45,927 nucleotides of DNA from Flavobacteriales bacterium (lineage in GTDB: Bacteria; Bacteroidota; Bacteroidia; Flavobacteriales; BACL11). Below the pieces are notes generated by a model. It saw only the letters and a program-made list of their open reading frames with translations, made no database searches and was not told the origin of the DNA. Made by a program: the position numbers and the translations under genes. The DNA is taken from contig JACNLP010000056.1 of assembly GCA_014381465.1 (NCBI GenBank), forward strand, positions 1 through 45,927, read 5' to 3'. Below, in pieces: positions 24,264 to 41,208 of this stretch (its first letter is position 1; the number at the start of each line of letters is the position of its first letter).

Positions 24264-27200
24264 TTATCTCATCAAATTTACTTCACCATTATATACCCAA
24301 GGTTTTCCGTTAAAATCTGTAATAGCAATGTGGTACAAATAAACTCCAACAGGAACAACAACATCAAATCGATCTCTTCCATTCCAACCATTTTCTCTTT
24401 TTTCAGATACGAAAACATTTTCTCCCCAACGATTATAAATTATCATCTTGTAGTTAATCATACCTTTCCCGTATGCCATAAATTCATCATCAAGTCCATC
24501 ACCATTTGGTGTAAACGCATTCGGAATAAAGATGGTAAACTCAGGGCGAACGATTATTTCTTTATTGAATTTATCTGAGCAACCATCAGAATTAGTAACC
24601 ATAAGCGAAACGATATATGCACCTGTATCAGAAAAAGTAATTGTTGGATTTTGCTCAGTAGTTGTTTCTCCATTTCCAAAATCCCACATCCAAATATTTG
24701 CATCTATGGATTTATCATCAAAAGATACTGAAGGATTTATAATGGAAGGAATTTGTGTACTTGCAATAAATTCAGCAATAGGATTATTGAAAACACTTAT
24801 TATATTTGGATAAGTTTTAGAAATATTACATCCCAAATTGGAAGTTACATCAAGTGATACTGAGTAAGTTCCTGCATTATTGTAAGTATGAATCACCTCT
24901 TGTTTATCAGATGTAGTTCCATCTCCAAGATTCCAGTTCCAAGCAGTTATGTAGCCGCCATCAACTAATGTAAGATCAATAAACTTTATCTCTTCACCCA
25001 CACAAGATTGCTCATTTGTATAAATATCAACAACAGGAAGTGGTGAAATAGTGATATTATTAGAAGTTGAATTTTCACATAATTTATCACTAATAAGAGT
25101 CAAGTTTACCAAATAATTTCCTGTATTTTGATATTGATAAGAAGGGTTATTGTAATTTGCAGTACCGATTCCATCTCCAAAATCCCAATTCCAAGCAATA
25201 ATATTTCCAGATACAATATTAGAATTATCGTAGAATGCAGTGTTATCTCCTTCACAAATATAATTTGTAGTAAAAGATGGGTTTGGAAGCGGGTACACAA
25301 TTGCTTGATGCGTAATTTCTTCCTCACAACCCTTATCAGATGTTACAATTAAATGCACATCAAAACTACCATCTGTAAGATAAATATGATCTGTTTCATT
25401 ATCACCAACAAAAGTAGTTCCATCTCCAAAAGTCCAGTACCAATTTGTAATGCTTCCCATGTTAATGTTTGAAGTAGATTGAAATAAACTAAAATCATTC
25501 AAACAAGCTTCTGTTATGGTAAAGTCCGCAATTGGCAACTCATTTACTATTACATTTTTACTTATTTGATTTTCACATCCATAATCGGACAAAACATTAA
25601 GCGTAACCAAAAAAGTTCCGTTAGTTGCATACTGATATTTTGGGTTTTTCTGTGTAGATATACCTGTTCCATCACCAAAATTCCATATCCATTGTATTAG
25701 ATCTCCACTAATTGAAGTTGAAATATCATTAAAAGAAGTAAGCTCTTCAAAACAAACTTCATCTGATGTAAAATCAGCAAAAGGAGTAGAATAAATATCA
25801 ACTGTTTTGTAAATTCTTGTTGCACAACTATTATCTAAATTAGTTACTTGCAAACCCAATAAGTAGTTTCCTGCAGTTAGGTATTGATGAGTAGGATTTT
25901 GAGCAATTGACATATTTCCATCCCCCAAATCCCATGACCATAACAAATTATTTGTGCTTAAACCAGAAGTTGCTATAAGTTGTAGTACTTCATCCTCACA
26001 CTGATTTGAAAAACTGATAGAAGGTATAGGAATCTCTTGATTGACTACCACTCTTACTGTATCAGTATTTTGGCATTTTCCATCATAAACTGTTGCTGTA
26101 AAAATAGTAGTTGAATTTGGTGTAGCCATAGGGTTTAAAATAGTAGCATTGGATAGAAATGTTGCTGGCGACCATAGAATACTGCCAGAATCAGCAATAG
26201 CTAAAAGAGCAATGCTATCATTTTTACAGATAGAAACAGTATTTCCAGCATCAATATTTATAGTATTTATCACTATTGAATCTTGCGATTGAACATTAAA
26301 TTGACAAGCAAAACTATTTTCTAAAACTAAAGAAGGAAAATATATTCCTGGACTTAAATATAAATGAGAGGCATTACTATCTGCTGAAAAAGTACCATCT
26401 CCAAAATCCCAAAAATAAGAAGCAGTATTTATTGTGTTTGATATGAAAATAGCAGTATCATCATAACAAATATCATTATCTAAAATAGTGAAAGTACCCA
26501 TTGGTCCTGATATATTTATTAAACCATTTTGCACAAAAGTATCTTTACATCCAAAGCTGTTTTCTACCATGAGTTTTACATCAAATACTCCTGAGTTTGC
26601 ATACAAATGAGAAGGAGTATTAAGGTTAGAAGTACTGCCATCTCCAAATTCCCAAGTAAAAATAGTAGCATCTGCACTTGATAAGTTATTAAAACCACTA
26701 ATTAAAGGAGGGCAATTAGAACTTACAGTATTTGTAGTAAAATCAGCAATTGGCTCTTGTACTGTAATATGGCTATTTTTCATAAGTGTTTTTGCACAAC
26801 CAAAAGAATCAACAACCATTAAAGAAATGTCATAAATTCCATTCTGATTATAGGAATGAGTAGAATTTAAAGTGGTTGAAGTAGTTCCATCACCGAAATC
26901 CCAAATATATGACAAACCCAAACCTGAAGATTGATTTGTAAAATTAACTAGCTCATTAAAACAAGATGTAGTTTTACTTACTGAAAAATCGGAAACAGGA
27001 TATACAAACTGAATGTATTCTATTTTTTTCATTGAATCTCTACATCCATCAGTTGATTCGGCAAAAAGAGTAACATCATATAAGCCAGGATTATAATAAA
27101 TGTATTGTGGTTGGCTAAGAGTTGATGTTCCTCCATCACCAAATTGCCAAGAAACTGTAGATAAAGGATTACTTAAATCATTAAATTCAACAAGCATAGA

Positions 27201-29615
27201 ATCACAACCTAAAGTATTTGCTATTTCAAAATCGGCATCCACTCCTTTAATAGAGTACATATTATTGTGCACAAAGGTATCTTTACATCCATGAATATCA
27301 GTAATAACCATGCTTACATCAAATGTTCCTACAGAATCAAATTCATGATCCACCCTGCTGTAACCAATGTACCCGTCTTCCCAAAACACCTTATACCATG
27401 ACCAATCTTGAGATAAATTTTCAAGATAAACTCTATGTGGCTTACATCCTGTTGAATCTTCTAAAGTATTCGTTCCATTTACTGAGTAAGTAAAATTAGC
27501 AATTGGCTCAGTAATTAATATTGGCAACACATAATTATCTGTGCACCCAGTTGCAGTATTTGAAGCTGAAAGAACAACATTATAATTTCCTCTAGAAGGA
27601 AAAACATGAGTAGGATTTAATAAAGTAGATGTTGTTCCGTCACCAAAATCCCAATTTACAAAATCGGCACCAATGGACAGGTTAGTAAAATCAACCGATA
27701 AAGAGTTAAGACAATTGTAAGTTTCTGTGAAAAATGCAGTCGGCTCAATTACTTGAATATAGTTATTAATAACAAAAGTATCTGCACAGCCAAAAGTAGA
27801 AGTAACAAGAGAAACATCATAAGTTCCTACTAAATTATAAGTATATGTAGGATTTTGTATCAATGAAGTTGAGCCATCTCCAAAATCCCAATACCAAGAA
27901 TCAATAAGGGTAGAAGTGGTAGATAAATCAGAAAAATCAACTGCAGTTCCAGAACAAATAATTAAAGGATTTGCAACAAAATTAGCTTGTGGAGGGTCGG
28001 CTACTTGAATATAGTTATTAATAGTTCTTGTATCGCTACAACCCAAATTATCGGTAACCTGCAAACGCACATCATAAAATCCGCTATTTGTATAAAGATG
28101 ATTTGGATTTTGTAGAGTAGAAGTGTTTCCATCACCAAAACTCCAAACCCAATTAGTTATAGTTTGATTTGAAATACTTGAATCCAAAAAAGTAGTATTA
28201 AAAGGATTACATCCTCCTAAAGATGATGTATTAAAATTAGCGATTGGCTTATCAATATTAATATAGTTAGGACTAACTAAAGTATTGCTACAGAAATTAT
28301 TATCAGTTACAGTAAGTGTAATAGAATACGCTCCTAAAGAAGTAAATATTTCTGTAGGGTTTTGAAGATTGGAAGTGTTCCCATTTCCGAAATCCCAAAT
28401 CCAATTTATTGCATCAATTGTAATATCAGCAAAATCAACTACAAAAGGGGTATCACAACTGAAATTGGTATTGGAATTAAATATAATATTTGGTTTTGTA
28501 AAAACTTCAATTGCTCCTAAAATTGTTGTATCTGATATACAATTGCTTCCTATTGAAGTTTTAAGAAGCACATCATAACTCCCAGCAATAGAATAAACAT
28601 GAGAAGGGTTTTGTAAAGTAGAAGTAGTTCCATCTCCAAAATCCCAAAACCATGTATTTACTCCAATTGTAGAAATGTCAGTAAATTGCACATTTAAATC
28701 AGCACAGCCGGAATTAGTATTATAAGTAAAATCGGTAGTATTAACTGCTCCAATCTCAATATAATTTGTCATTATTAATGAATCGTAACAAAAACCATTA
28801 TTTACAACTAAGCTAACTGTAAAAATTCCATTACTATAATTATGTGTAGGGTTTTGTAAAGTAGAAGTTGTTCCATCACCAAAATCCCAAAAATAAGTAA
28901 GATTATTTCCAACTGATAGATTATCAAAATTTACTATATCAGAAGTATTACACGAAAGAACTTTATCGGCAATAAAATTAGCTTCAGGACGAGAAAATGT
29001 TTCAATGTAATCAGGGATAATAATTAAATCCTGACAAGAATTAGCATCTATAACTAATAAGGAAACGGTATAAGTTCCTTCAGAAGAATAAGTATAACTA
29101 GGATTCTGCAAGCTACTATTTCCTCCATCTCCAAAATCCCAAAAATGATTAACGATTGGAGTTGAACTTGTTGAGAGATCAATAAAATCAGTATTTAGAG
29201 GTATACATCCAGTATTTGCAGAGGCAATATCAATGTTTGCAATAGGATTTTCAAAAACTACAATATAAGCAAATTCTGATTTTGAATCGCTTGTTATACC
29301 ATCAGAAACCGTAAGCCGAACATTATATGTTCCAGGCAGAGAGTATATTGCTACAGGATTTTTTAAAGTAGAAGTATTACCATTCCCTAAATCCCAAAGC
29401 CAAGAATTAGGACTTCCTGTTGATAAATCTTGAAATTCTACAATAATTGAACCACAAGCTGTTGTAGAATCTACAGTAGTAAAATCAGCCGTAACCTGTG
29501 AGGATGCACTAGTTGAAATCAATATGGCTAAAAGGATTAGGAAATAGTAAGTAATCTTACTTTTATGTAACTTGAATCTAGAAATTTGAATAAGGCGGAG
29601 TAAAATTAAAGTCAT
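24264..29615 (-). CDS. giant PKD-repeat surface protein with T9SS type B sorting domain
   Basis: 1783 residues. A signal peptide at about 20-40 ends near SASSQ. I count 19 PKD modules between about residues 40 and 1690, 18 with a W.FGDG/LGNG core and one degenerate (FWEDGYIGYS, about the ninth). An Ig-like stretch (SICKNDSIALL to TVYDGKCQNTDTV) interrupts the series after module 13. The C-terminal about 90 residues are a gliding-motility-type sorting domain: FIPNAFTPNGDGLDDEF, IYNRWGENVF, VGVYLYHI. Such proteins are exported by T9SS and act as adhesins or gliding-related surface filaments. Most modules end in a conserved Cys. No PorP/SprF partner gene lies beside it. The true start may be internal, near the signal peptide. 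Confidence 0.92.
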   Translation of the reverse strand: MTLILLRLIQISRFKLHKSKITYYFLILLAILISTSASSQVTADFTTVDSTTACGSIIVEFQDLSTGSPNSWLWDLGNGNTSTLKNPVAIYSLPGTYNVRLTVSDGITSDSKSEFAYIVVFENPIANIDIASANTGCIPLNTDFIDLSTSSTPIVNHFWDFGDGGNSSLQNPSYTYSSEGTYTVSLLVIDANSCQDLIIIPDYIETFSRPEANFIADKVLSCNTSDIVNFDNLSVGNNLTYFWDFGDGTTSTLQNPTHNYSNGIFTVSLVVNNGFCYDSLIMTNYIEIGAVNTTDFTYNTNSGCADLNVQFTDISTIGVNTWFWDFGDGTTSTLQNPSHVYSIAGSYDVLLKTSIGSNCISDTTILGAIEVFTKPNIIFNSNTNFSCDTPFVVDFADITIDAINWIWDFGNGNTSNLQNPTEIFTSLGAYSITLTVTDNNFCSNTLVSPNYINIDKPIANFNTSSLGGCNPFNTTFLDSSISNQTITNWVWSFGDGNTSTLQNPNHLYTNSGFYDVRLQVTDNLGCSDTRTINNYIQVADPPQANFVANPLIICSGTAVDFSDLSTTSTLIDSWYWDFGDGSTSLIQNPTYTYNLVGTYDVSLVTSTFGCADTFVINNYIQVIEPTAFFTETYNCLNSLSVDFTNLSIGADFVNWDFGDGTTSTLLNPTHVFPSRGNYNVVLSASNTATGCTDNYVLPILITEPIANFTYSVNGTNTLEDSTGCKPHRVYLENLSQDWSWYKVFWEDGYIGYSRVDHEFDSVGTFDVSMVITDIHGCKDTFVHNNMYSIKGVDADFEIANTLGCDSMLVEFNDLSNPLSTVSWQFGDGGTSTLSQPQYIYYNPGLYDVTLFAESTDGCRDSMKKIEYIQFVYPVSDFSVSKTTSCFNELVNFTNQSSGLGLSYIWDFGDGTTSTTLNSTHSYNQNGIYDISLMVVDSFGCAKTLMKNSHITVQEPIADFTTNTVSSNCPPLISGFNNLSSADATIFTWEFGDGSTSNLNTPSHLYANSGVFDVKLMVENSFGCKDTFVQNGLINISGPMGTFTILDNDICYDDTAIFISNTINTASYFWDFGDGTFSADSNASHLYLSPGIYFPSLVLENSFACQFNVQSQDSIVINTINIDAGNTVSICKNDSIALLAIADSGSILWSPATFLSNATILNPMATPNSTTIFTATVYDGKCQNTDTVRVVVNQEIPIPSISFSNQCEDEVLQLIATSGLSTNNLLWSWDLGDGNMSIAQNPTHQYLTAGNYLLGLQVTNLDNSCATRIYKTVDIYSTPFADFTSDEVCFEELTSFNDISTSISGDLIQWIWNFGDGTGISTQKNPKYQYATNGTFLVTLNVLSDYGCENQISKNVIVNELPIADFTITEACLNDFSLFQSTSNINMGSITNWYWTFGDGTTFVGDNETDHIYLTDGSFDVHLIVTSDKGCEEEITHQAIVYPLPNPSFTTNYICEGDNTAFYDNSNIVSGNIIAWNWDFGDGIGTANYNNPSYQYQNTGNYLVNLTLISDKLCENSTSNNITISPLPVVDIYTNEQSCVGEEIKFIDLTLVDGGYITAWNWNLGDGTTSDKQEVIHTYNNAGTYSVSLDVTSNLGCNISKTYPNIISVFNNPIAEFIASTQIPSIINPSVSFDDKSIDANIWMWDFGNGETTTEQNPTITFSDTGAYIVSLMVTNSDGCSDKFNKEIIVRPEFTIFIPNAFTPNGDGLDDEFMAYGKGMINYKMIIYNRWGENVFVSEKRENGWNGRDRFDVVVPVGVYLYHIAITDFNGKPWVYNGEVNLMR

Positions 29616-29701: not shown

Positions 29702-29709
29702 TACTTTTG
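29702..29709 (+). promoter_or_regulatory. -7 box of mtaB, predicted leaderless start
   Basis: TACTTTTG followed by CAAA and ATG at 29714, spacing 4 nt. Confidence 0.6.
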
Positions 29710-32218: not shown

Positions 32219-32226
32219 TATCTTTG
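32219..32226 (+). promoter_or_regulatory. -7 box of truA, predicted leaderless start
   Basis: TATCTTTG followed by TACA and the ATG at 32231, spacing 4 nt. No -33 TTTG at normal spacing. Confidence 0.55.
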
Positions 32227-32230
32227 TACA

Positions 32231-32971
32231 ATGCGATTTTTCATTGAATTATCTTTTAACGGAAGCAATTATCATGGTTGGCAAATTCAGCCAAATGCCA
32301 ATACCATTCAAGCAGAATTGAACAAGGCTCTCTCTACTATTTTAAATGATGCAATTAATGTAGTTGGGGCTGGCAGAACGGATGCTGGCGTTCACGCAAA
32401 ACAAATGTTTGCTCATTTTGATTTTGAAGGAGAGTTAAAAACAGAAAGCTTACTTACAAAACTCAATGGTTTTCTTCCTAATGATATTGCAATACTGAAT
32501 ATTTTTTCAGCAGATAAAGATGCTCATGCTCGCTTTGATGCCATTAGCAGAACTTATAAATATTACATTAGCAATAAAAAAAATCCTTTTAATAATAATG
32601 TGTATTTTTATTACAAAAAGTTAGATATTGATGCCATGAACTTGGCTTGTAAATACCTATTAGGAAAGCAAGATTTTACTTCTTTTTCCAAGTTGCACAC
32701 ACAAACCCACACCAATGATTGTGAGGTAATGATTGCCGATTGGGAAAAGAAAAATGATTGCTTAGTTTTTACTATAAAAGCTGATCGGTTTTTGCGTAAT
32801 ATGGTTCGTGCTATTGTTGGCACACTACTTGAAGTAGGGGAAGGGAAAATAACAAAAGATAAAGTAAAAGAAATAACAAACAAGAAAGATAGATCTCAAG
32901 CGGGCGTTTCTGTGCCAGCACATGCCCTTTTTCTAACTAATATTGAATATCCTGAAATGATAATGAATTAA
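32231..32971 (+). CDS. truA: tRNA pseudouridine(38-40) synthase
   Basis: Isomerises U38-U40 in the anticodon stem-loop of tRNAs. 246 residues, full length. The catalytic Asp is D51 in GAGRTDAGVHA. YHGWQIQPNANTIQAEL, FDAISRTYKYYI and the C-terminal FLRNMVRAIVGTLLEVG are family signatures. It is the second tRNA-modification gene in the mtaB-lgt-truA run but has its own promoter. Confidence 0.97.
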   Translation: MRFFIELSFNGSNYHGWQIQPNANTIQAELNKALSTILNDAINVVGAGRTDAGVHAKQMFAHFDFEGELKTESLLTKLNGFLPNDIAILNIFSADKDAHARFDAISRTYKYYISNKKNPFNNNVYFYYKKLDIDAMNLACKYLLGKQDFTSFSKLHTQTHTNDCEVMIADWEKKNDCLVFTIKADRFLRNMVRAIVGTLLEVGEGKITKDKVKEITNKKDRSQAGVSVPAHALFLTNIEYPEMIMN

Positions 32972-33129: not shown

Positions 33130-34881
33130 ATGTCCAAAACCGGAGAAATATTAGATTTCCAATTGCTTAAAAGAGTGTTGAAATTTTCTGAGCCCTACAA
33201 ATCACGGATGTGGCTTACAGCAATTTTTGCAATTCTTTTAGCTTTTTTAGCTCCTTTACGCCCACTGCTTATTAACTATGCTTTGGATGAGTATGTGCTT
33301 TTTCCTAATCTGGAAATGCTATTTCAGCTTACCCTTTTAATGATTGTTATCTTGATAATTGAGGCAATTGTACAGTTTTATTATATCTATTATGCCGCTT
33401 GGATTGGGCAACATGTAATTCAGGATTTGAGAGGAAAAATATATAAGCACATTATTAGTTTAAAACTCAGTTTTTTTGACAAAACACCAATAGGAACAGT
33501 GGTTACTCGTACAATTTCTGATATTGAAACAATTGCTGCTATTTTTTCAGAGGGCTTATTTATTATTGCTGAACTTTTAAAAATTGTAGCGGTACTTGCC
33601 GTTATGTTTTACACGGATGTGAAGCTTACTATTGTTTCTTTGGGGTCTATTCCTTTACTACTTATTGCTACCACTTGGTTTAAGCGATCGATTAAGTCCG
33701 CCTTTCAGCAAGTCCGTACTCAAGTTTCCGTTATGAATGCTTTTATTCAAGAGCATATTGTAGGTATGAATATTGTTCAGATTTTTGCTAGAGAAAAAGC
33801 AGAATATCAAAAATTCAAAAAGATTAACAAAGCACATCAAGATGCACATATTCGTTCTATTTTGTATTATTCCATTTTCTTTCCTGTGGTTGAGATACTT
33901 TCGGCATCTTCCATTGGTTTAATTATCTGGTGGGGAGGAAGTGCTATTTTGTCTGGACAAGATGTAACTTTTGGAGAATTAGTTGCTTTTATTCTGTACA
34001 TTCACATGCTTTTTCGTCCAATTCGTCAATTGGCTGATAGATTCAATATTCTACAAATGGGTATTGTTGGTTCAGAAAGGGTTTTCAAAATTCTGGACAC
34101 CAATCAAAAAATTCAAGATAATGGCGACAAGGTCTTAGAAAATGCAAAAGGAGGTATTAGTTTTAAGGATGTCTTTTTTGCCTACAACAAAGAGCAATGG
34201 GTACTTAAAGGTATTAATTTTGAAATTGAGGCGGGGAAAACTCTTGCGCTTGTTGGCGAAACGGGTGCTGGCAAAACCTCTGTTACTAATGTGCTCAATC
34301 GTTTTTATGATATACAAAAAGGAAGTGTAAAAATTGATGGAAAATCTATTCAGGAAATCAAACTTAGCTCATTGCGTGAGCAAATCGCTTTTGTGCAGCA
34401 GGAGGTATTTTTGTTTTCTGATTCCATTTTTAATAACATCACACTTTATGATGAACACATAAGTATTGATGTAGTGGAGAGTGCGGCAAAACAAATAGGT
34501 ATTCACGATTTTATTAAATCACTTCCTGGCGGATATAGTTATTCAGTTGGAGAAAGAGGAGTAACTTTATCTACAGGACAAAGGCAGCTTATTGCTTTTT
34601 TACGGGTGTATGTTCGTAATCCTAAAATCTTAATTTTAGATGAGGCAACTTCTTCAATTGACACAGAAACAGAACAGTTATTGCAAAATGCTTTAGAAAA
34701 ATTAGCTATTAATCGTACTCTCATTATTATAGCCCACCGCCTTTCCACTATTGCGAATGCGGATAAAATCCTCCTATTCAAAGACGGGAAAATTCTAGAG
34801 CAGGGCTCGCATATTGATTTAATGCAGCAAGAAGGAATTTATGAAAAAATGTATAGTACCCAGCAATTTTCTAAAAACTGA
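33130..34881 (+). CDS. ABC exporter, MsbA/LmrA-type half-transporter
   Basis: 583 residues, permease and ATPase fused. Six membrane helices lie in residues 20-310 with the SFFDKTPIGTVVTRTISDIE coupling region. The ATPase domain carries Walker A GETGAGKTS (G377 onward), Q-loop FVQQEVFLF, signature LSTGQRQLIAF, Walker B ILILDEATSSID and H-loop IAHRLS. The signature reads LSTGQ instead of LSGGQ, as in several YknU/V- and MdlB-like exporters. It probably works as a homodimer exporting lipids or hydrophobic compounds; substrate unknown. Confidence 0.93.
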   Translation: MSKTGEILDFQLLKRVLKFSEPYKSRMWLTAIFAILLAFLAPLRPLLINYALDEYVLFPNLEMLFQLTLLMIVILIIEAIVQFYYIYYAAWIGQHVIQDLRGKIYKHIISLKLSFFDKTPIGTVVTRTISDIETIAAIFSEGLFIIAELLKIVAVLAVMFYTDVKLTIVSLGSIPLLLIATTWFKRSIKSAFQQVRTQVSVMNAFIQEHIVGMNIVQIFAREKAEYQKFKKINKAHQDAHIRSILYYSIFFPVVEILSASSIGLIIWWGGSAILSGQDVTFGELVAFILYIHMLFRPIRQLADRFNILQMGIVGSERVFKILDTNQKIQDNGDKVLENAKGGISFKDVFFAYNKEQWVLKGINFEIEAGKTLALVGETGAGKTSVTNVLNRFYDIQKGSVKIDGKSIQEIKLSSLREQIAFVQQEVFLFSDSIFNNITLYDEHISIDVVESAAKQIGIHDFIKSLPGGYSYSVGERGVTLSTGQRQLIAFLRVYVRNPKILILDEATSSIDTETEQLLQNALEKLAINRTLIIIAHRLSTIANADKILLFKDGKILEQGSHIDLMQQEGIYEKMYSTQQFSKN

Positions 34882-34938: not shown

Positions 34939-34946
34939 TAATTTTG
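34939..34946 (+). promoter_or_regulatory. -7 box of the T9SS cargo operon, predicted leaderless GTG start
   Basis: TAATTTTG followed by TAGT and a GTG at 34951, spacing 4 nt. It supports the GTG as the real start, which also gives a proper signal peptide. Confidence 0.5.
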
Positions 34947-34950
34947 TAGT

Positions 34951-37017
34951 GTGAAACAAAAACTACCATATATATTAATTCTTTTTCTTTTTATTCTTTA
35001 CCAGAATTCTTGGGCACAAATTACAATTGATAAAGCTGCTCCTTACGATTCTCCAGCTTGGCTTGTAGATAATATTTTATTGGGCGGTGGAGTGGTAGCG
35101 TCTAATCATTCTTATCAAGGAGATAGTGTCCAAATTGGATTTTTCAATGCTATTAATACTAATCTTGGGTTGGATAGCGGTATTGTAATGGCTACTGGCG
35201 ATATTGATTTGTTAGATCCATTTTTTACTGGTTTTGGGGCTGCTCTCCCAAATACGGTTACTGATCCAGATTTGCTTACGGTTGCCAATTCTGTTCCGCC
35301 ACTTATTGGGCAAACTTTTGTGGTATCTTCTATCAATGATGTAGCAAGGCTAGAATTTGATTTTATTCCAACTTCTGATACGGTAAAGTTTAGATATGTT
35401 TTTGGCTCGCAAGAATATTTTGGTTTTGAAAATTCCCAATACAATGATGTATTTGGATTCTTTCTTTCTGGTCCTGGAATAGCAGGGCCTTATTCAAATG
35501 GAGCAATAAATTTAGCAGTTGTTCCTGGTTCTAATCCGCCACTTCCAATTACAATTTCATCTATACATAATGGAGGTGCGGGTGGAATTTTTACCCCCAC
35601 TAATGACCAATATTTTGTAGATAATTCTGCTCTTGCTTTTATTAATGATGCAGATGGATACACCACTGTATTTACTGCTACAGCAATTGTGCAATGCGGA
35701 CAACCTTACCATATTAAATTAGCTATTGCTGATGGATCTGATCAAGGCTTGAGTTCTTATGTGTGGCTAGAGGCAGGAAGTTTTTCTTCCCCTGTTTTAG
35801 ATGTTGTTGATAATTTTGGTATAGACTCAACTTTTATGGAAATCCCTTGTGATTCTACAATTCTGCTAACTGCTGATGGAGGAGCAGGAGCTACTTATCA
35901 ATGGTTTGATGATAGTGGAAATATGTTAGGAACCGATTCTAGTTTGTATGTTGGTGCTGGTAGCTATGTGGTAGCTGCTACTGCTATAGGTTGTGCAGTT
36001 TTTTCTGATACATTTACTGTTTTTTCCAAACCGCCACCTACTTTTGAATTAGGAGCAAATTATAATATTCCTTGCAATACGACTACTTTAATTGATCCGG
36101 TTATTACAGGAGGAACAGGAAATTACACATATACTTGGAACAATGGAAGTGTTGATTCTTCTCTTTTGGTAGGACAGGGTTATTATCATTTAACTATTAA
36201 TGATGGAACGGGCTGTTTGGTAATGGATTCTATTACTATTACGGAAGATACACCTCCAACAGCAACAATTTCTGGAGGAGGAAGTGTTTGTGATGATGGT
36301 ACAATGGTAAATATATCCTTTGATTATGTTGGTTTATTATCTTGGAATTTAACTTATACTGATGGTACTAATTCCTTTACTCAGAATACAATTGGGAGTT
36401 TAAATTATAACTTTAATACTTTACAAGCAGGAAGTTATACTATTACACAAATCACAGATGTGAATGGTTGTGTAGCAAATGTTTCAGGTCTTGCACAAGT
36501 ACAAGTAAATCCTTTGCCAAATGCAATGATTAGTCCAGGAAATACAACTATTTATATTGGGCAAACTATCACTTTAAGCACAGATAATTATAATTTTTAT
36601 AATTGGTATAATGATGAGGATTCTTTAATAGGAAATCTTCAACAAATTGATGTAAGTAAAGAAGATGCTTATTATGTGTGGGTAGAAGATGTAAATGGTT
36701 GCACGGACATTTCAGAATTAGTTTTTATAACATTTCTTCCTAAAACGGAACTTTTTATTCCTACCGCTTTTACACCAAATGGTGATGAGCATAACGATTT
36801 ATTTGTGATAAAAGGTCAATTTATAAAAACCTTTAAAATAGATGTAGCAAATAGGTGGGGCGAAATAGTTTTTACAAGCAATTCCATAGAAAAATATTGG
36901 GATGGTACTTTTGAAGGGGTAAAAGTTATTGAAGGCTCTTATTACTATAACATACAGATGGTAGGAGAGGATAATAAACCATTCGTAAAACAAGGAACAA
37001 TAGATGTAATTTATTAA
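34951..37017 (+). CDS. secreted protein, choice-of-anchor L domain plus T9SS type B sorting domain
   Basis: 688 residues from a GTG start. A signal peptide covers about 1-24 (ending SWAQ). Residues about 35-285 form a choice-of-anchor L domain (VRLEFDF-like ARLEFDFIPTSDTVKFRYVF, GSQEYFGFENSQYNDVFGFF). The middle has Ig/SprB-like modules, including ITGGTGNYTYTWNNG. The last about 90 residues are a type B sorting domain: FIPTAFTPNGDEHNDLF, VANRWGEIVFTS, GSYYYNIQM. Exported by T9SS to the surface or medium. First gene of a three-gene unit; the next starts 15 bp downstream. Confidence 0.92.
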   Translation: MKQKLPYILILFLFILYQNSWAQITIDKAAPYDSPAWLVDNILLGGGVVASNHSYQGDSVQIGFFNAINTNLGLDSGIVMATGDIDLLDPFFTGFGAALPNTVTDPDLLTVANSVPPLIGQTFVVSSINDVARLEFDFIPTSDTVKFRYVFGSQEYFGFENSQYNDVFGFFLSGPGIAGPYSNGAINLAVVPGSNPPLPITISSIHNGGAGGIFTPTNDQYFVDNSALAFINDADGYTTVFTATAIVQCGQPYHIKLAIADGSDQGLSSYVWLEAGSFSSPVLDVVDNFGIDSTFMEIPCDSTILLTADGGAGATYQWFDDSGNMLGTDSSLYVGAGSYVVAATAIGCAVFSDTFTVFSKPPPTFELGANYNIPCNTTTLIDPVITGGTGNYTYTWNNGSVDSSLLVGQGYYHLTINDGTGCLVMDSITITEDTPPTATISGGGSVCDDGTMVNISFDYVGLLSWNLTYTDGTNSFTQNTIGSLNYNFNTLQAGSYTITQITDVNGCVANVSGLAQVQVNPLPNAMISPGNTTIYIGQTITLSTDNYNFYNWYNDEDSLIGNLQQIDVSKEDAYYVWVEDVNGCTDISELVFITFLPKTELFIPTAFTPNGDEHNDLFVIKGQFIKTFKIDVANRWGEIVFTSNSIEKYWDGTFEGVKVIEGSYYYNIQMVGEDNKPFVKQGTIDVIY

Positions 37018-37032
37018 TTTAAAAACTAAATC

Positions 37033-38457
37033 ATGATAAAAAAAACACTTTTATATTTCGTAGCTATCTTGTTTGTTTGTAATGTTTCTAGTGCACAAAC
37101 CTTAAATTGGAGCACTACACAAAGTATTAGTAGTGGAAGCCAAAGTGGTTATGGCAGACCAAGAATTGTACTTACGGAAAATAATGCACCTTTAATTATG
37201 TGGACAAAAACAAGCACACCAAAAAGCATAAAAGCTTCAAAATGGAATGGAAGTTCATTTTCCGCTCCTTACGATATTGTTCCGCCTAGCTTAGAACCAA
37301 CAGGTTTTATAGGTCCTGAAATTGCCAGTAAAGGAGATACGGTTTATGTTATTTTTCTCTCAGCTCGTTCTGTAAATAATTTTGTTTATCTTATTTCTTC
37401 CTTTGATGGAGGACTTACTTTTTCTGATACCGTTAGGGTTTCAGATAATTCAAACACCAATAAATTTGGTATGCCAAATGTTGCCGTAAATACGGATGGT
37501 AATCCAATTGTTTCCTATATGGAATCTTCCTTAACTTGGACTGATTGGAAGCAAATGGTAAAAGTTTCTTCTGATTTTGGGAATACATTTAGTGCCGCTT
37601 TTGATGTAAGTGCATTGGCCCCTGATGAACCATGTGATTGTTGTAAATCTTCTTTGGTGGCAAATGGCAATGATGTTTTTTTACTTTTTAGAAATAATGA
37701 AAATAATGTACGAAACTCCTATGTTGCAAAATCATCTGATGGTGGTTTTACTTTTACTTCAGCCTCTGGAATTGATGATGACATCTGGATAATAAATGCT
37801 TGTCCATCATCTTCTCCTCAAGGAATGATGTCAGGAGATTCCTTAATTATTGCTAGAAGAAATGGTGCAAATAACAGAAATGAAATATTAGTTTCGGTAG
37901 TAAATTTTAACGATTTGCAATATGCCTATAATAACAGAATTGACCCGATTTCTTTCGGTTTGCAAGATTACCCTGAAGTTGCTGGAAATGGAGATACTAT
38001 TGGAATTGTATGGCAAGACAATAGAAACTCATATATGGATTGTTTTTTTAGTTTTTCTACCACAGGTGCTTCTTCTATTAGTGGCTCAGTTATTATGAAC
38101 GATACCAATAACATTGGTTCGCAAATTGATCCAGATATTACTTTTGCAAGTGGTAGATTTCATTTTGTATATACTAATGCTGGAACTCATGAAGTTTTTT
38201 ATCGAACAGCAGATTTTTCAAACACTTCATCAGTTTATGAATTAGAGAAAAAACAACTTTCTATTTTCCCAAACCCTGTAAATGATAAAATGATAATTAC
38301 AAGCGATATAACTGGAGAAATAATCATTAAAAATATAGAAGGAAAAGATGTGATTTCTTTAGAAAACAGAGGTAAAGATATTGATGTTTCTTTTTTACCT
38401 TCTGGAATTTATACTATTGAAACTAATGGTTTAAGTACAAAATTTATCAAACAATAA
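37033..38457 (+). CDS. secreted sialidase-like beta-propeller protein with T9SS type A sorting domain
   Basis: 474 residues. Signal peptide about 1-21 (ending SSAQ). Repeats resembling Asp-box/BNR blades are visible: SSFDGGLTFSD, VSSDFGNTFS and KSSDGGFTFTS. A cysteine cluster EPCDCCKSS sits between blades, a feature seen in other sialidase-like propellers. The C-terminal about 75 residues are a type A (Por_Secre_tail) domain: LSIFPNPVNDKMIIT ... FLPSGIYTIETNGLSTKFIK. No catalytic sialidase residues could be confirmed, so enzymatic activity is uncertain. The next gene starts on the base after its stop codon. Confidence 0.88.
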   Translation: MIKKTLLYFVAILFVCNVSSAQTLNWSTTQSISSGSQSGYGRPRIVLTENNAPLIMWTKTSTPKSIKASKWNGSSFSAPYDIVPPSLEPTGFIGPEIASKGDTVYVIFLSARSVNNFVYLISSFDGGLTFSDTVRVSDNSNTNKFGMPNVAVNTDGNPIVSYMESSLTWTDWKQMVKVSSDFGNTFSAAFDVSALAPDEPCDCCKSSLVANGNDVFLLFRNNENNVRNSYVAKSSDGGFTFTSASGIDDDIWIINACPSSSPQGMMSGDSLIIARRNGANNRNEILVSVVNFNDLQYAYNNRIDPISFGLQDYPEVAGNGDTIGIVWQDNRNSYMDCFFSFSTTGASSISGSVIMNDTNNIGSQIDPDITFASGRFHFVYTNAGTHEVFYRTADFSNTSSVYELEKKQLSIFPNPVNDKMIITSDITGEIIIKNIEGKDVISLENRGKDIDVSFLPSGIYTIETNGLSTKFIKQ

Positions 38458-41208
38458 ATGAGAAAATTAGTTCTTACCTTTCTAAATCTTTTATTAATCT
38501 TTTTTCTTTCAGCTCAAACAACTGATTGGGTAAAATCATTTGGAGGAATAAATTCAGATAAAGGAATAAGTATTGGAACTGATTCTTTAGGATTTATTTA
38601 TGTAAGTGGGTTTTACAATAGTGAAGCAACATTTGATGTTATTAAGTTGTCTAATGGAGGTACAGGAACAAATAAGGAGAATTTTATAATGAAAATGGAT
38701 TCTCTTGGTAATGTATTATGGACTATACCTGGAGGTGATCAAACTGGAGGATGTTGTGATGATAGAGCTTTAGGCATGCATGTTACTCCAGCTGGAGATG
38801 TTTTTATTACGGGTACTTTTTGGTCATCTTATAATCTAGGTGTTCCTGGAGCTCCAAATACTATAAGTGTTACTCAAAATACTTGGAATACAGCATTAAA
38901 CAATCATGATAATTCTTTGTTGGCTAAAATTGATAAAAATGGAGTTCCTCAATGGGCAATTGGGTTTGGTGCTGATAATACATCAGGAGGGTGTTCTTGG
39001 CCAATTTATGATGCAGATGATCATTCTTATGATGTAAAAGTAGATGATGATGGTTTTATTTATGTAACAGGATTCTTCTCAGGATATGATGCAGATTTTG
39101 ATAATTTATCAATCTCAAATCCTAATTGGGGAACAACTTGTACTCCTATGGGTTATATAGGCAAGTTGGATCAAAACGGTAACTGGCTTTGGGTTGATAA
39201 ATTTGATGGAATAAAAGATGCAAGAGGTTCAAGAGATAATAGATTGGCTATAGATAAATACTCCAACATTTATGTTGTAGGGGGCTTTGAAAATACAGGA
39301 AATTATGGTCCTTATTCTATTACATCTAATGGAGAGTGGGATGGCTTTATTTTTAAAATGGATAAAGATGGAAACTGGCTTTGGGCTAAAAATGTAGGAA
39401 GTAATAAAACCGATAGAATAAATAGTATTGCTATTGATGTTTGTGATGATGTGTATGTTACTGGAGAATACAGAAATCCTATGGTATTTGCAGGAGCAAA
39501 TGCTTCAAATGGAACAGATACTTTGAGTCATAAACAAAAAAGAGATGTTTTTGTAGCTAAGATGAATAATCAAGGAGATTGGAAATGGGCAAAAAGAGCA
39601 AGGAGTTCTGGTACAGATAAACCTTATCAAATGTCGGTAGATGCTAACAAACAAGTTTTTGTTTGCGGAACTTCAAGAGGAGAGATGACCTTTTCAAACG
39701 CATTAGTGGTGAATGCACAAATTCCAGGAGATACTACTGCCTCAGCATGGGTGGCTCAATTAGATGGAAGTACAAACACAGGAGATTGGGTTTGGGCAAA
39801 AATGGCAGGAACAGATACAGATGATGATGACAGAACAAATGACATTTGTGTGGATGGATTTGGTAATGCTTATGCAGTTGGTTTTTTTGAAGATTTAGCC
39901 AATTTTGATGGTACCATTTTGGATGCTACTGGTAGAAAGAAAGATATTTTTGTATGGAAAATGAGCATGACCCCTGGTAGTTTTACGGTCAATAATATTT
40001 ACGATACCATTTATATGGACAGTATAGTTTACAACCCTTTGGATTCAGGTTATTTAACCATTAGTAATTTTTCAATAAATGGTTGCGATACTTTTTTTAC
40101 AGACACAATTATTCATAAACGATATGCAGTAAGAGTTATGTATGATGTAAATCCTGCTGGAACAGCCACTATTGATATTAACGGAAATACCATTTCTGCT
40201 TTCCCCTTTACGGAAGAATATTTTTATGGAGATACGGTTAATCTTTCTGCTAATATAAATGCGGGTTGGTATTTTAGTTCTTGGAGTTCTTTAAATAATA
40301 CCTTAAATACCACTGTAACAAATCCCACTAATTTTATTGCCAATGATGATGACACTATTGTTTTGATTATTAATGCTATTCCACCAGTTTCTGCTTATAT
40401 TTATGGTAGTGATACCCTTTGTGCTAACGAAAATAGAGAAGCACAAATTACCATTGATTTTGTAGGAGTTGCTCCTTTTACTTTTGTGTATGCTATTGAT
40501 GGGGTAAATCAGCCGTCAATCACTACTAATACAAACCCTTATATTATTAGCTCCAATACGGAAGGAATCTATTCCATTACTAATATGTCGGATGCCATGG
40601 GTGTTGGTTCAATAACGGGTTCTGCTATTGTGGTGGTTCATAATTCGCCAATTGCCACTTTTTCTATTGTTCCAGATATGGTTACTATAAATTATCCAAC
40701 TGCTCATTTTGTAGATAAAACAAATGGAAATATTGTGGAATGGCTATGGAATTTTGATGATAATACTGTGGATAGTATGGTTTCAAAAGTATATCATACT
40801 TTCCCTGATTCTGTTGGAGTTTATCAAATTACAATGATAGTAACTGATGAGAATGGATGCTCGGATACTACCTTTAATCAGCTATGGGTAGAAAATGAAT
40901 TTTGGATTTATTTACCTAATAGTTTTACGCCTGATTTGGATGGGATAAACGATAAATTCTGCCTTAGTTATAATGGAGTGAGAATAGAAACTTTTCAGAT
41001 TAATATTTATGACAGGTATAGTGGGCTTGTTTTTTCTTCCAATAATATTGATGATATGCTTTGTGAATTAGATGTAAAAGCATGGGATGGAACTCATAAA
41101 GATTCTGGTAAGGAATTGCCAATGGGGACTTATATTTATGATCTGTACTTCCAAGACTTTCAGGGTTGGAAACATCAAGAGCAAGGTTTTATTTATTTGG
41201 TGAGGTAG
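38458..41208 (+). CDS. secreted SBBP-type beta-propeller protein with PKD and T9SS type B sorting domain
   Basis: 916 residues. Signal peptide about 1-20 (ending LSAQ). Residues about 20-505 hold repeated propeller blades of the SBBP type, with units such as GFIYVSGFYN, GDVFITGTFW, GFIYVTGFF and FVAKMNNQGDWKWAKRA. Then come a tubulin-like-free beta region with an InlB-like module (YDVNPAGTATI, SWSSLNNTLNTT), a PKD module (VEWLWNFDDNTVDS) at about 755-810, and a type B sorting domain (YLPNSFTPDLDGINDKF ... GTYIYDLYFQDFQGWKH). It follows the sialidase-like gene without any gap, so the pair is translationally linked. Confidence 0.9.
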   Translation: MRKLVLTFLNLLLIFFLSAQTTDWVKSFGGINSDKGISIGTDSLGFIYVSGFYNSEATFDVIKLSNGGTGTNKENFIMKMDSLGNVLWTIPGGDQTGGCCDDRALGMHVTPAGDVFITGTFWSSYNLGVPGAPNTISVTQNTWNTALNNHDNSLLAKIDKNGVPQWAIGFGADNTSGGCSWPIYDADDHSYDVKVDDDGFIYVTGFFSGYDADFDNLSISNPNWGTTCTPMGYIGKLDQNGNWLWVDKFDGIKDARGSRDNRLAIDKYSNIYVVGGFENTGNYGPYSITSNGEWDGFIFKMDKDGNWLWAKNVGSNKTDRINSIAIDVCDDVYVTGEYRNPMVFAGANASNGTDTLSHKQKRDVFVAKMNNQGDWKWAKRARSSGTDKPYQMSVDANKQVFVCGTSRGEMTFSNALVVNAQIPGDTTASAWVAQLDGSTNTGDWVWAKMAGTDTDDDDRTNDICVDGFGNAYAVGFFEDLANFDGTILDATGRKKDIFVWKMSMTPGSFTVNNIYDTIYMDSIVYNPLDSGYLTISNFSINGCDTFFTDTIIHKRYAVRVMYDVNPAGTATIDINGNTISAFPFTEEYFYGDTVNLSANINAGWYFSSWSSLNNTLNTTVTNPTNFIANDDDTIVLIINAIPPVSAYIYGSDTLCANENREAQITIDFVGVAPFTFVYAIDGVNQPSITTNTNPYIISSNTEGIYSITNMSDAMGVGSITGSAIVVVHNSPIATFSIVPDMVTINYPTAHFVDKTNGNIVEWLWNFDDNTVDSMVSKVYHTFPDSVGVYQITMIVTDENGCSDTTFNQLWVENEFWIYLPNSFTPDLDGINDKFCLSYNGVRIETFQINIYDRYSGLVFSSNNIDDMLCELDVKAWDGTHKDSGKELPMGTYIYDLYFQDFQGWKHQEQGFIYLVR

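Follow-up and report, generated by a model that had tools for sequence, protein, structure and literature searches.

A conserved pair of type B cargo genes with a loosely associated propeller gene, and a short C-terminal tail resembling a T9SS sorting signal in Flavobacteriales

Three consecutive genes in the genome of a member of the Flavobacteriales encode large T9SS cargo proteins that end in sorting domains of two different types, which raises the question of whether the mixture of type A and type B signals is itself conserved or whether the locus is built around some other unit. The locus was analyzed within a stretch of 45,927 nucleotides (the window), which represents contig C79 of an assembly of 1.98 Mb (85 contigs, 97% complete; the "own" genome, G000), and was compared across 40 genomes of the order, 25 of which (Flavobacteriales MAGs, the own genome included) belong to one family. 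The interpretation that we consider likely is that the trio is a T9SS cargo operon with a type B core pair, and that a short tail, found at the C-terminus of gene 2 homologues outside the genus, is a miniature T9SS sorting signal.

The trio and its conservation

The initial annotation had described three adjacent ORFs with intergenic gaps of 15 bp (genes 1 and 2) and 0 bp (genes 2 and 3), whose products carry tails of type B, type A and type B; the ORF coordinates bear out the former point and the Pfam and NCBIfam matches confirm the latter (Table 1). Genes 1 and 3 are type B cargo genes judging by the C-terminal matches of their products to CHU_C (E 9e-17 and E 3.5e-15, respectively) and to TIGR04131 (49.3 and 37.5 bits, above the curated cut-off of 35). 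Gene 2 qualifies as encoding type A cargo by its C-terminal matches to Por_Secre_tail (35.3 bits, cut-off 27) and to TIGR04183 (24.4 bits, barely over the cut-off of 23), and it also matches BNR_2 (32.7 bits, cut-off 31.4). The anchor, Ig-like, PKD and propeller modules of the three proteins suggest binding or adhesion. A sequence search of the PDB matched gene 1 to GhpA of Aureispira (E 2e-44) and residues 188-478 of gene 3 to CylK chains (E 5e-17), neither of which decides the function, and retrieved no match for gene 2; the AlphaFold2 model of the latter, built from three sequences, has a mean pLDDT of 43.7. A C[DE]CC motif in gene 2 is retained in 17/17 aligned BNR homologues, the distant copy in G030 included. 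Another type B protein encoded in the window, on the opposite strand, is listed in Table 1.

Table 1. Features of the window that are discussed in the text
Feature	Position	Strand	Evidence or remark
1783-aa protein	24264-29615	-	type B tail, TIGR04131 36.4 bits; PorP/SprF neighbour absent
TAnnTTTG box	29702-29709		4 nt before a start codon
TAnnTTTG box	32219-32226		4 nt before a start codon
tRNA pseudouridine synthase, upstream neighbour	32231-32971	+	domain match and locus comparison
ABC transporter, upstream neighbour	33130-34881	+	domain match and locus comparison
TAATTTTG, candidate -7 promoter box	34939-34946	+	TAnnTTTG box; end lies 4 nt upstream of the gene 1 GTG; sequence argument only
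Gene 1, choice-of-anchor L protein, 688 aa	34951-37017	+	GTG start; NF038133, E 3e-55, aa 39-278
Gene 1, type B sorting domain, aa 603-684	36757-37002	+	PF13585 (CHU_C), TIGR04131
Gene 2, BNR propeller protein, 474 aa	37033-38457	+	BNR_2 match, aa 117-290
Gene 2, type A sorting domain, aa 411-474	38263-38454	+	Por_Secre_tail, TIGR04183
Gene 3, SBBP propeller/PKD protein, 916 aa	38458-41208	+	SBBP, PKD_4
Gene 3, type B sorting domain, aa 819-914	40912-41199	+	CHU_C, TIGR04131
dapF, downstream of the trio	41424 onwards

The exact trio recurs in two of the three other sampled genomes of the genus (G001 and G003); in the third (G002, 73% complete), a match to gene 2 and a full gene 3 are both absent. 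At a greater distance, the anchor-L and SBBP genes stay together, as direct neighbours or separated by gene 2, in 14 genomes of the 25 in the family, and these represent 10 genera (G000, G001, G003, G004, G007, G009, G010, G013, G014, G016, G017, G018, G019 and G024); in the remaining 11 genomes, one partner is missing or the locus is rearranged or broken at contig ends. The genes for the tRNA pseudouridine synthase and the ABC transporter are located upstream in most of the relatives' loci that extend that far. Fifteen family genomes out of 25 have a homologue of gene 2, and so does G030, from another family. The homologue is inserted between genes 1 and 3 only in G000, G001 and G003, all of this genus, and follows gene 3 on its far side in G009 and G012; in G023, where the contig breaks off, it lies beside the last part of a gene 3 homologue. 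In all remaining genomes that have it, the propeller gene is located elsewhere. A scan of the genome contigs with gene 2 retrieved the two congeners only. Because the position of gene 2 varies among genomes, the conserved unit is the type B anchor-L/SBBP pair, and the propeller is a recurrent but loose third member. The mixed-tail trio described in the initial annotation is thus real and is shared with two congeners, but the mixture of types does not stand as a conserved design. Downstream of the locus, two large ORFs are found in G003, G009, G013, G024 and other genomes in place of the arrangement seen in the window, the first of them with an SSAGSGKT motif and helicase/nuclease-like by eye; the differing downstream genes reflect local rearrangement.

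These phyletic patterns bear on two further readings of the trio. The tight gene spacing, the recurrence in two congeners and the proximity of the BNR gene to the SBBP gene in six genomes would all accord with the three proteins forming one complex at the cell surface, its type B members staying anchored and its type A member being set free. Nothing in the sequences supports such a division into anchored and free parts, and the complex seems unlikely given that the BNR gene is unlinked in most of the genomes that have it and encodes a protein with another tail there, and that type A cargo may, according to PMC12618676, equally be surface-attached. That the three cargo genes are unrelated and came by chance, in this genus only, to be neighbours under a common promoter is quite improbable: the exact trio is indeed limited to this genus (3 of 4 sampled genomes), but the co-occurrence of genes 1 and 3 extends across the 10 genera (14/25 genomes) listed above, and gene 2 is again found beside gene 3 in other genera. 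Under the preferred interpretation, the trio would be a small T9SS cargo operon, the core of which is the conserved type B pair of anchor-L and SBBP/PKD proteins, with the BNR propeller gene placed between the two in this genus, and would be expressed as one transcript.

The region upstream of gene 1 contains TAATTTTG, a candidate -7 box by the Bacteroidota consensus TAnnTTTG. It belongs to a block that is nearly identical to the block upstream of a congener gene (locus L065), the ATG start of which is found one base beyond the position of the GTG of gene 1. The window as a whole shows no enrichment for this consensus (92 boxes vs 82 expected), and a sigma-70 scan was uninformative (37 sites vs 41.6 expected). 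Across the own genome, a TAnnTTTG box ends exactly 4 nt before the start of 9 of 233 ORFs, compared with 0-2 for each of the other spacings below 14, in a count that gave precedence to ATG starts, so that the GTG-started gene 1 is outside the nine. The 4-nt spacing, seen for three boxes in the window (Table 1), suggests a class of leaderless messages in this genome, and a leaderless message beginning at gene 1 would fit the position of the box. A single promoter for the trio is plausible; transcription may also continue into the trio from the ABC-transporter gene located 69 bp upstream.

The own genome encodes T9SS machinery including PorU (NF033707, 1393 bits), PorV and PorQ, along with six PorP/SprF places (PF11751). 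Type A cargo travels via PorV and type B cargo via PorP/SprF, which is often encoded next door (PMC12618676, PMC10202324). None of the six PorP/SprF places is on the contig of the window; genes 1 and 3, with no such neighbour, therefore encode orphan type B cargo, and both proteins would need a shuttle in trans, presumably one of the PorP/SprF proteins encoded elsewhere in the genome.

A short C-terminal tail and its distribution

An alignment of 17 homologues of gene 2 from 16 genomes reveals a body that is common up to approximately residue 400 and C-termini that differ. The ends were classed with short and type A profiles derived from the tails of the own genome and G012, where the BNR tail of G012 is itself a row of the short-tail profile. 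A type A tail, with a match to the type A profile only, is found in 3/17 homologues, all from this genus; outside the genus, 10/14 homologues have the short tail (E 2.8e-6 or better; the G018 copy is truncated), and the other four of the 17 (two from G011, one each from G022 and G015) have a degenerate or shortened end (E 8e-4 to 0.17). The type A BNR genes cluster together in a tree built from the bodies (clade support 0.67), whose outgroup, the G030 gene, sits on a long branch and has a short tail. The simplest history would be that an ordinary type A CTD took the place of an earlier short tail once, in this genus.

The short tail consists of about 40 residues (KLlKIvDvLGRE..kNtPLFYIYDDGTVEKKIIIE), and the profile used to search for it has 44 columns and 20 seed tails, nine of them from BNR homologues. 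No model for it was seen in Pfam and NCBIfam scans: when eight short-tailed proteins were compared with PF18962 and TIGR04183, one weak internal match below the cut-off was obtained and none at the tail, and for 35 short-tailed proteins of the own genome, neither model appears among the best 25 of 52 and 25 of 31 matches. These 35 proteins hardly align otherwise and include LRR proteins, PHA depolymerase-like esterases, M43 peptidases, nucleases, an amidase, a cyanophycinase-like protein, choice-of-anchor B proteins and others; within the tail, three columns are invariant and seven nearly so. The distance between the end of the match and the stop codon is at most 3 aa in 39/41 cases in the own genome and in 50/53 in G012, and never exceeds 10. 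A crude signal-peptide test was positive for 35/38 complete short-tailed ORFs in the own genome and 41/52 in G012 (11/52 fail), and for 46/51 and 48/54 type A ORFs, respectively. A single C-terminal tag shared by so many unrelated exported proteins has the appearance of a sorting signal.

All 25 family genomes contain short-tail matches, 8-54 per genome in counts that include a few fragments, with 43 in the own genome (two with an internal stop among them) and 54 in G012. TIGR04183 matches number 61 and 56 in these two genomes once six below the cut-off are dropped from each (67 to 61 and 62 to 56). The places of short-tail and TIGR04183 matches do not overlap in either genome, and 0/248 tagged ORFs match both the short and the type A profiles. 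Outside the family, there are 41 short-tail matches in G030, 7 in G032 and 5 in G038; the other 12 genomes of the order have none, though 8 of these hold 30-109 TIGR04183 matches. A sample of 395 genomes from the phylum (371 of them >90% complete), in which at most 18 candidates per genome were scored, yielded the short tail only in the own genome and in G101. G101, with a single match (C63:60928-61056, E 2e-13), has a genome of 5.2 Mb and belongs to a different family within the class.

The number of PorV-family genes above the cut-off does not track the short tail, with two such genes in G012 (54 tails), two in G030 (41 tails) and three in G026 (no tails), and accordingly no dedicated shuttle was found. 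On contig C73 of the own genome, the PorV-family gene in the vicinity of a short-tailed protein was considered for this role and rejected, as it is PorQ. On the same contig (L172, L173), seven short-tail matches are found, three at 14.2-17.3 kb, three at 0.1-3.5 kb and the seventh near porQ. A third PorV-family gene, on contig C2, scores above the family cut-off and below the cut-offs of PorV, PorQ and PorV2; it is preceded, at a distance of 12 bp, by a gene for a 1396-aa protein without an NCBIfam match (L265:221-5497 for the two genes).

Relationship to the type A signal and tail exchange

Four hits of the two genomes were set aside, and for profile comparison, 83 of the remaining 95 short and 100 of the remaining 115 type A tails were retained after length and end filters. 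The short profile matches the type A profile with a probability of 89% (P 2e-6, columns 14-52 on 30-84; 58% in global mode), a likeness that derives from one profile pair; in the controls, 20 column-shuffled type A profiles reached at most 3.8% and the reversed type A profile 1.3%. The short profile matches the type B profile at 0.2%, and type A matches type B at 89.7%, i.e. the method joins A and B too. With broad patterns, 83/83 short tails have a glycine in motif B, and 83/83 a basic residue among their final ten. Among the tails readable at the respective position, D/N occurs three residues before this glycine in 76/79 short and 90/96 type A tails, and Tyr four residues before it in 26/96 type A tails but in 0 or 1/83 short ones, depending on which of two patterns is used. 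The motif D GxY is absent from the short tails (0/83) and present in 94/100 type A tails (pattern GxY/N/F), and the same holds for PNP (0/83 and 91/100, respectively). A cleavage-like site, T[GSA]I, is located ahead of 28/83 short tails (0/83 in the control stretch) and of 21/100 type A tails (3/100 in the control); the looser [GSAD]I (56/83 short tails vs 27/83 in the control) is less telling. The short tail would thus retain what corresponds to the type A domain's C-terminal half, with the D/N-x-x-G of motif B and the basic motif E, and would be devoid of the N-terminal half and of the motif D GxY. By implication, short-tailed proteins would be exported across the outer membrane through the T9SS, with binding to PorV and cleavage by PorU.

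Reciprocal best matches between bodies of the own genome and G012 yielded 54 pairs, of which 35 have type A tails on both sides, 17 have short tails on both sides and 2 are mixed, one in each direction (30, 14 and 2 among the 46 pairs that pass a 60% coverage filter). Tails are therefore seldom exchanged (the class is kept in 52/54 pairs), and proteins with the two kinds of tail may have different fates or end points. Over all loci, 79 mixed pairs were obtained, many of them related through a single domain or drawn from the same family; these were counted as four families in which tails are mixed over nearly the whole body. The first is the BNR propeller of the window. In the second, a Reg_prop propeller, the own protein has the short tail, and among the other 18 genomes with a match, 15 have type A tails and 3 are tail-less. 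The BD-FAE-like protein carries the short tail in G023 and the type A tail in G012, a member of the same genus, the two being 79% identical over 416 aa; the Cu2_monoox_C protein has the short tail in G003, G004, G018 and G019 and the type A tail in G012 (44-46% identical). Orthology is backed by reciprocal best matches in the BNR and Reg_prop cases only. Most simply, one protein of the own lineage would have switched from short to type A (BNR) and another from type A to short (Reg_prop). The three Reg_prop and four BNR homologues without a full tail indicate that the tail may be dispensable.

A stronger claim would be that the short tail defines a distinct T9SS class with its own receptor or end point (e.g. 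release) and that proteins are re-routed by tail exchange; we offer this as a tentative possibility about which we are doubtful. If it is true, this lineage runs type A, type B and miniature signals in parallel. If the preferred interpretation of a miniature T9SS signal is right, T9SS cargo is undercounted in the lineage, where the own genome has 43 short-tail beside 61 TIGR04183 matches, and the short tail would be among the smallest T9SS signals. The dual-tail families would then provide ready pairs for determining which features a CTD must have to be recognized by a shuttle, cleaved and delivered to its final place, and suggest that the route of a cargo protein can change by tail replacement while the body remains unchanged.

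The constancy of the tail class (52/54 pairs), together with the absence of GxY, would also be expected if the short tail were a signal for another route or anchor, such as outer-membrane insertion or a lipid or peptidoglycan anchor, so that location changes with the tail. We regard this as very unlikely in view of the profile likeness to the C-terminal half of type A, for which the shuffle and reversal controls are negative, the D/N-x-x-G common to both tails, the similar cleavage-like site and the exchange of tails between near-full-length homologues. That the short tail is a decaying, functionless type A CTD kept by chance can hardly be maintained, even with some homologues having a degenerate tail or none, considering its tight conservation across 35 unrelated proteins, its many copies in every family genome and the apparent passage of the own Reg_prop gene from type A to short.

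Comparison with known sorting signals

The preferred interpretation, a miniature T9SS signal, places the short tail next to several known systems. A search of titles and abstracts, with most subscription papers outside its reach, retrieved no account of this tail. The T9SS signal types named in a review are A, B and C, the last represented by ChiA (PMC10202324). The short tail resembles the type A CTD (PF18962/TIGR04183) in the profile of its C-terminal half, the D/N-x-x-G, the C-terminal place and the kind of cargo, and both occur in the same protein families; unlike the type A CTD, it has neither PNP nor GxY and was not matched by these two models in the scans above. The type C CTD is likewise a T9SS signal outside types A and B, but is described as spanning approximately 100 aa in ChiA (PMC10202324).

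Among the two type B proteins of the trio, the closest parallel is with orphan cargo of Flavobacterium johnsoniae, which similarly has a TIGR04131 tail and no adjacent PorP/SprF gene and which may share a shuttle, as in the case of three orphans with one shuttle (PMC12618676); unlike those orphans, the two described here are encoded within one operon.

The short CTDs of Prevotella intermedia, according to Ye et al. (2025, PMC11969387) the only species reported to have both short and long CTDs, are the nearest analogues of the short tail. They were modelled with three strands and bound to PorV in the same way as the long ones, and their cleavage and glycosylation were measured (PMC11969387), whereas the tail described here is known from sequences alone; the small-residue-Ile site ahead of it (T[GSA]I, 28/83 tails) may correspond to the P-T/G-I type cleavage site of P. 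intermedia. The two kinds of tail agree in size and place, with about 40-55 aa from the cleavage or cleavage-like site to the C-terminus of signal-peptide proteins (recognized here by the crude test), in the motif B glycine followed by a basic residue and the basic motif E, and in the coexistence with long type A signals in one genome, 43 short and 61 type A here compared with 48 short and 32 long in P. intermedia (PMC11969387). They differ in that the HMMs for short and long CTDs overlapped in 25 proteins of P. intermedia (PMC11969387) and in 0/248 here, that the motif B Tyr is strongly conserved there and present in 0 or 1/83 tails here, and that the motif D Gly (GxY or GxN), absolutely conserved there, is found in 0/83 here. 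Because this glycine is missing, the short tail is not classified with the short CTDs of P. intermedia; by analogy, it nonetheless probably works like them.
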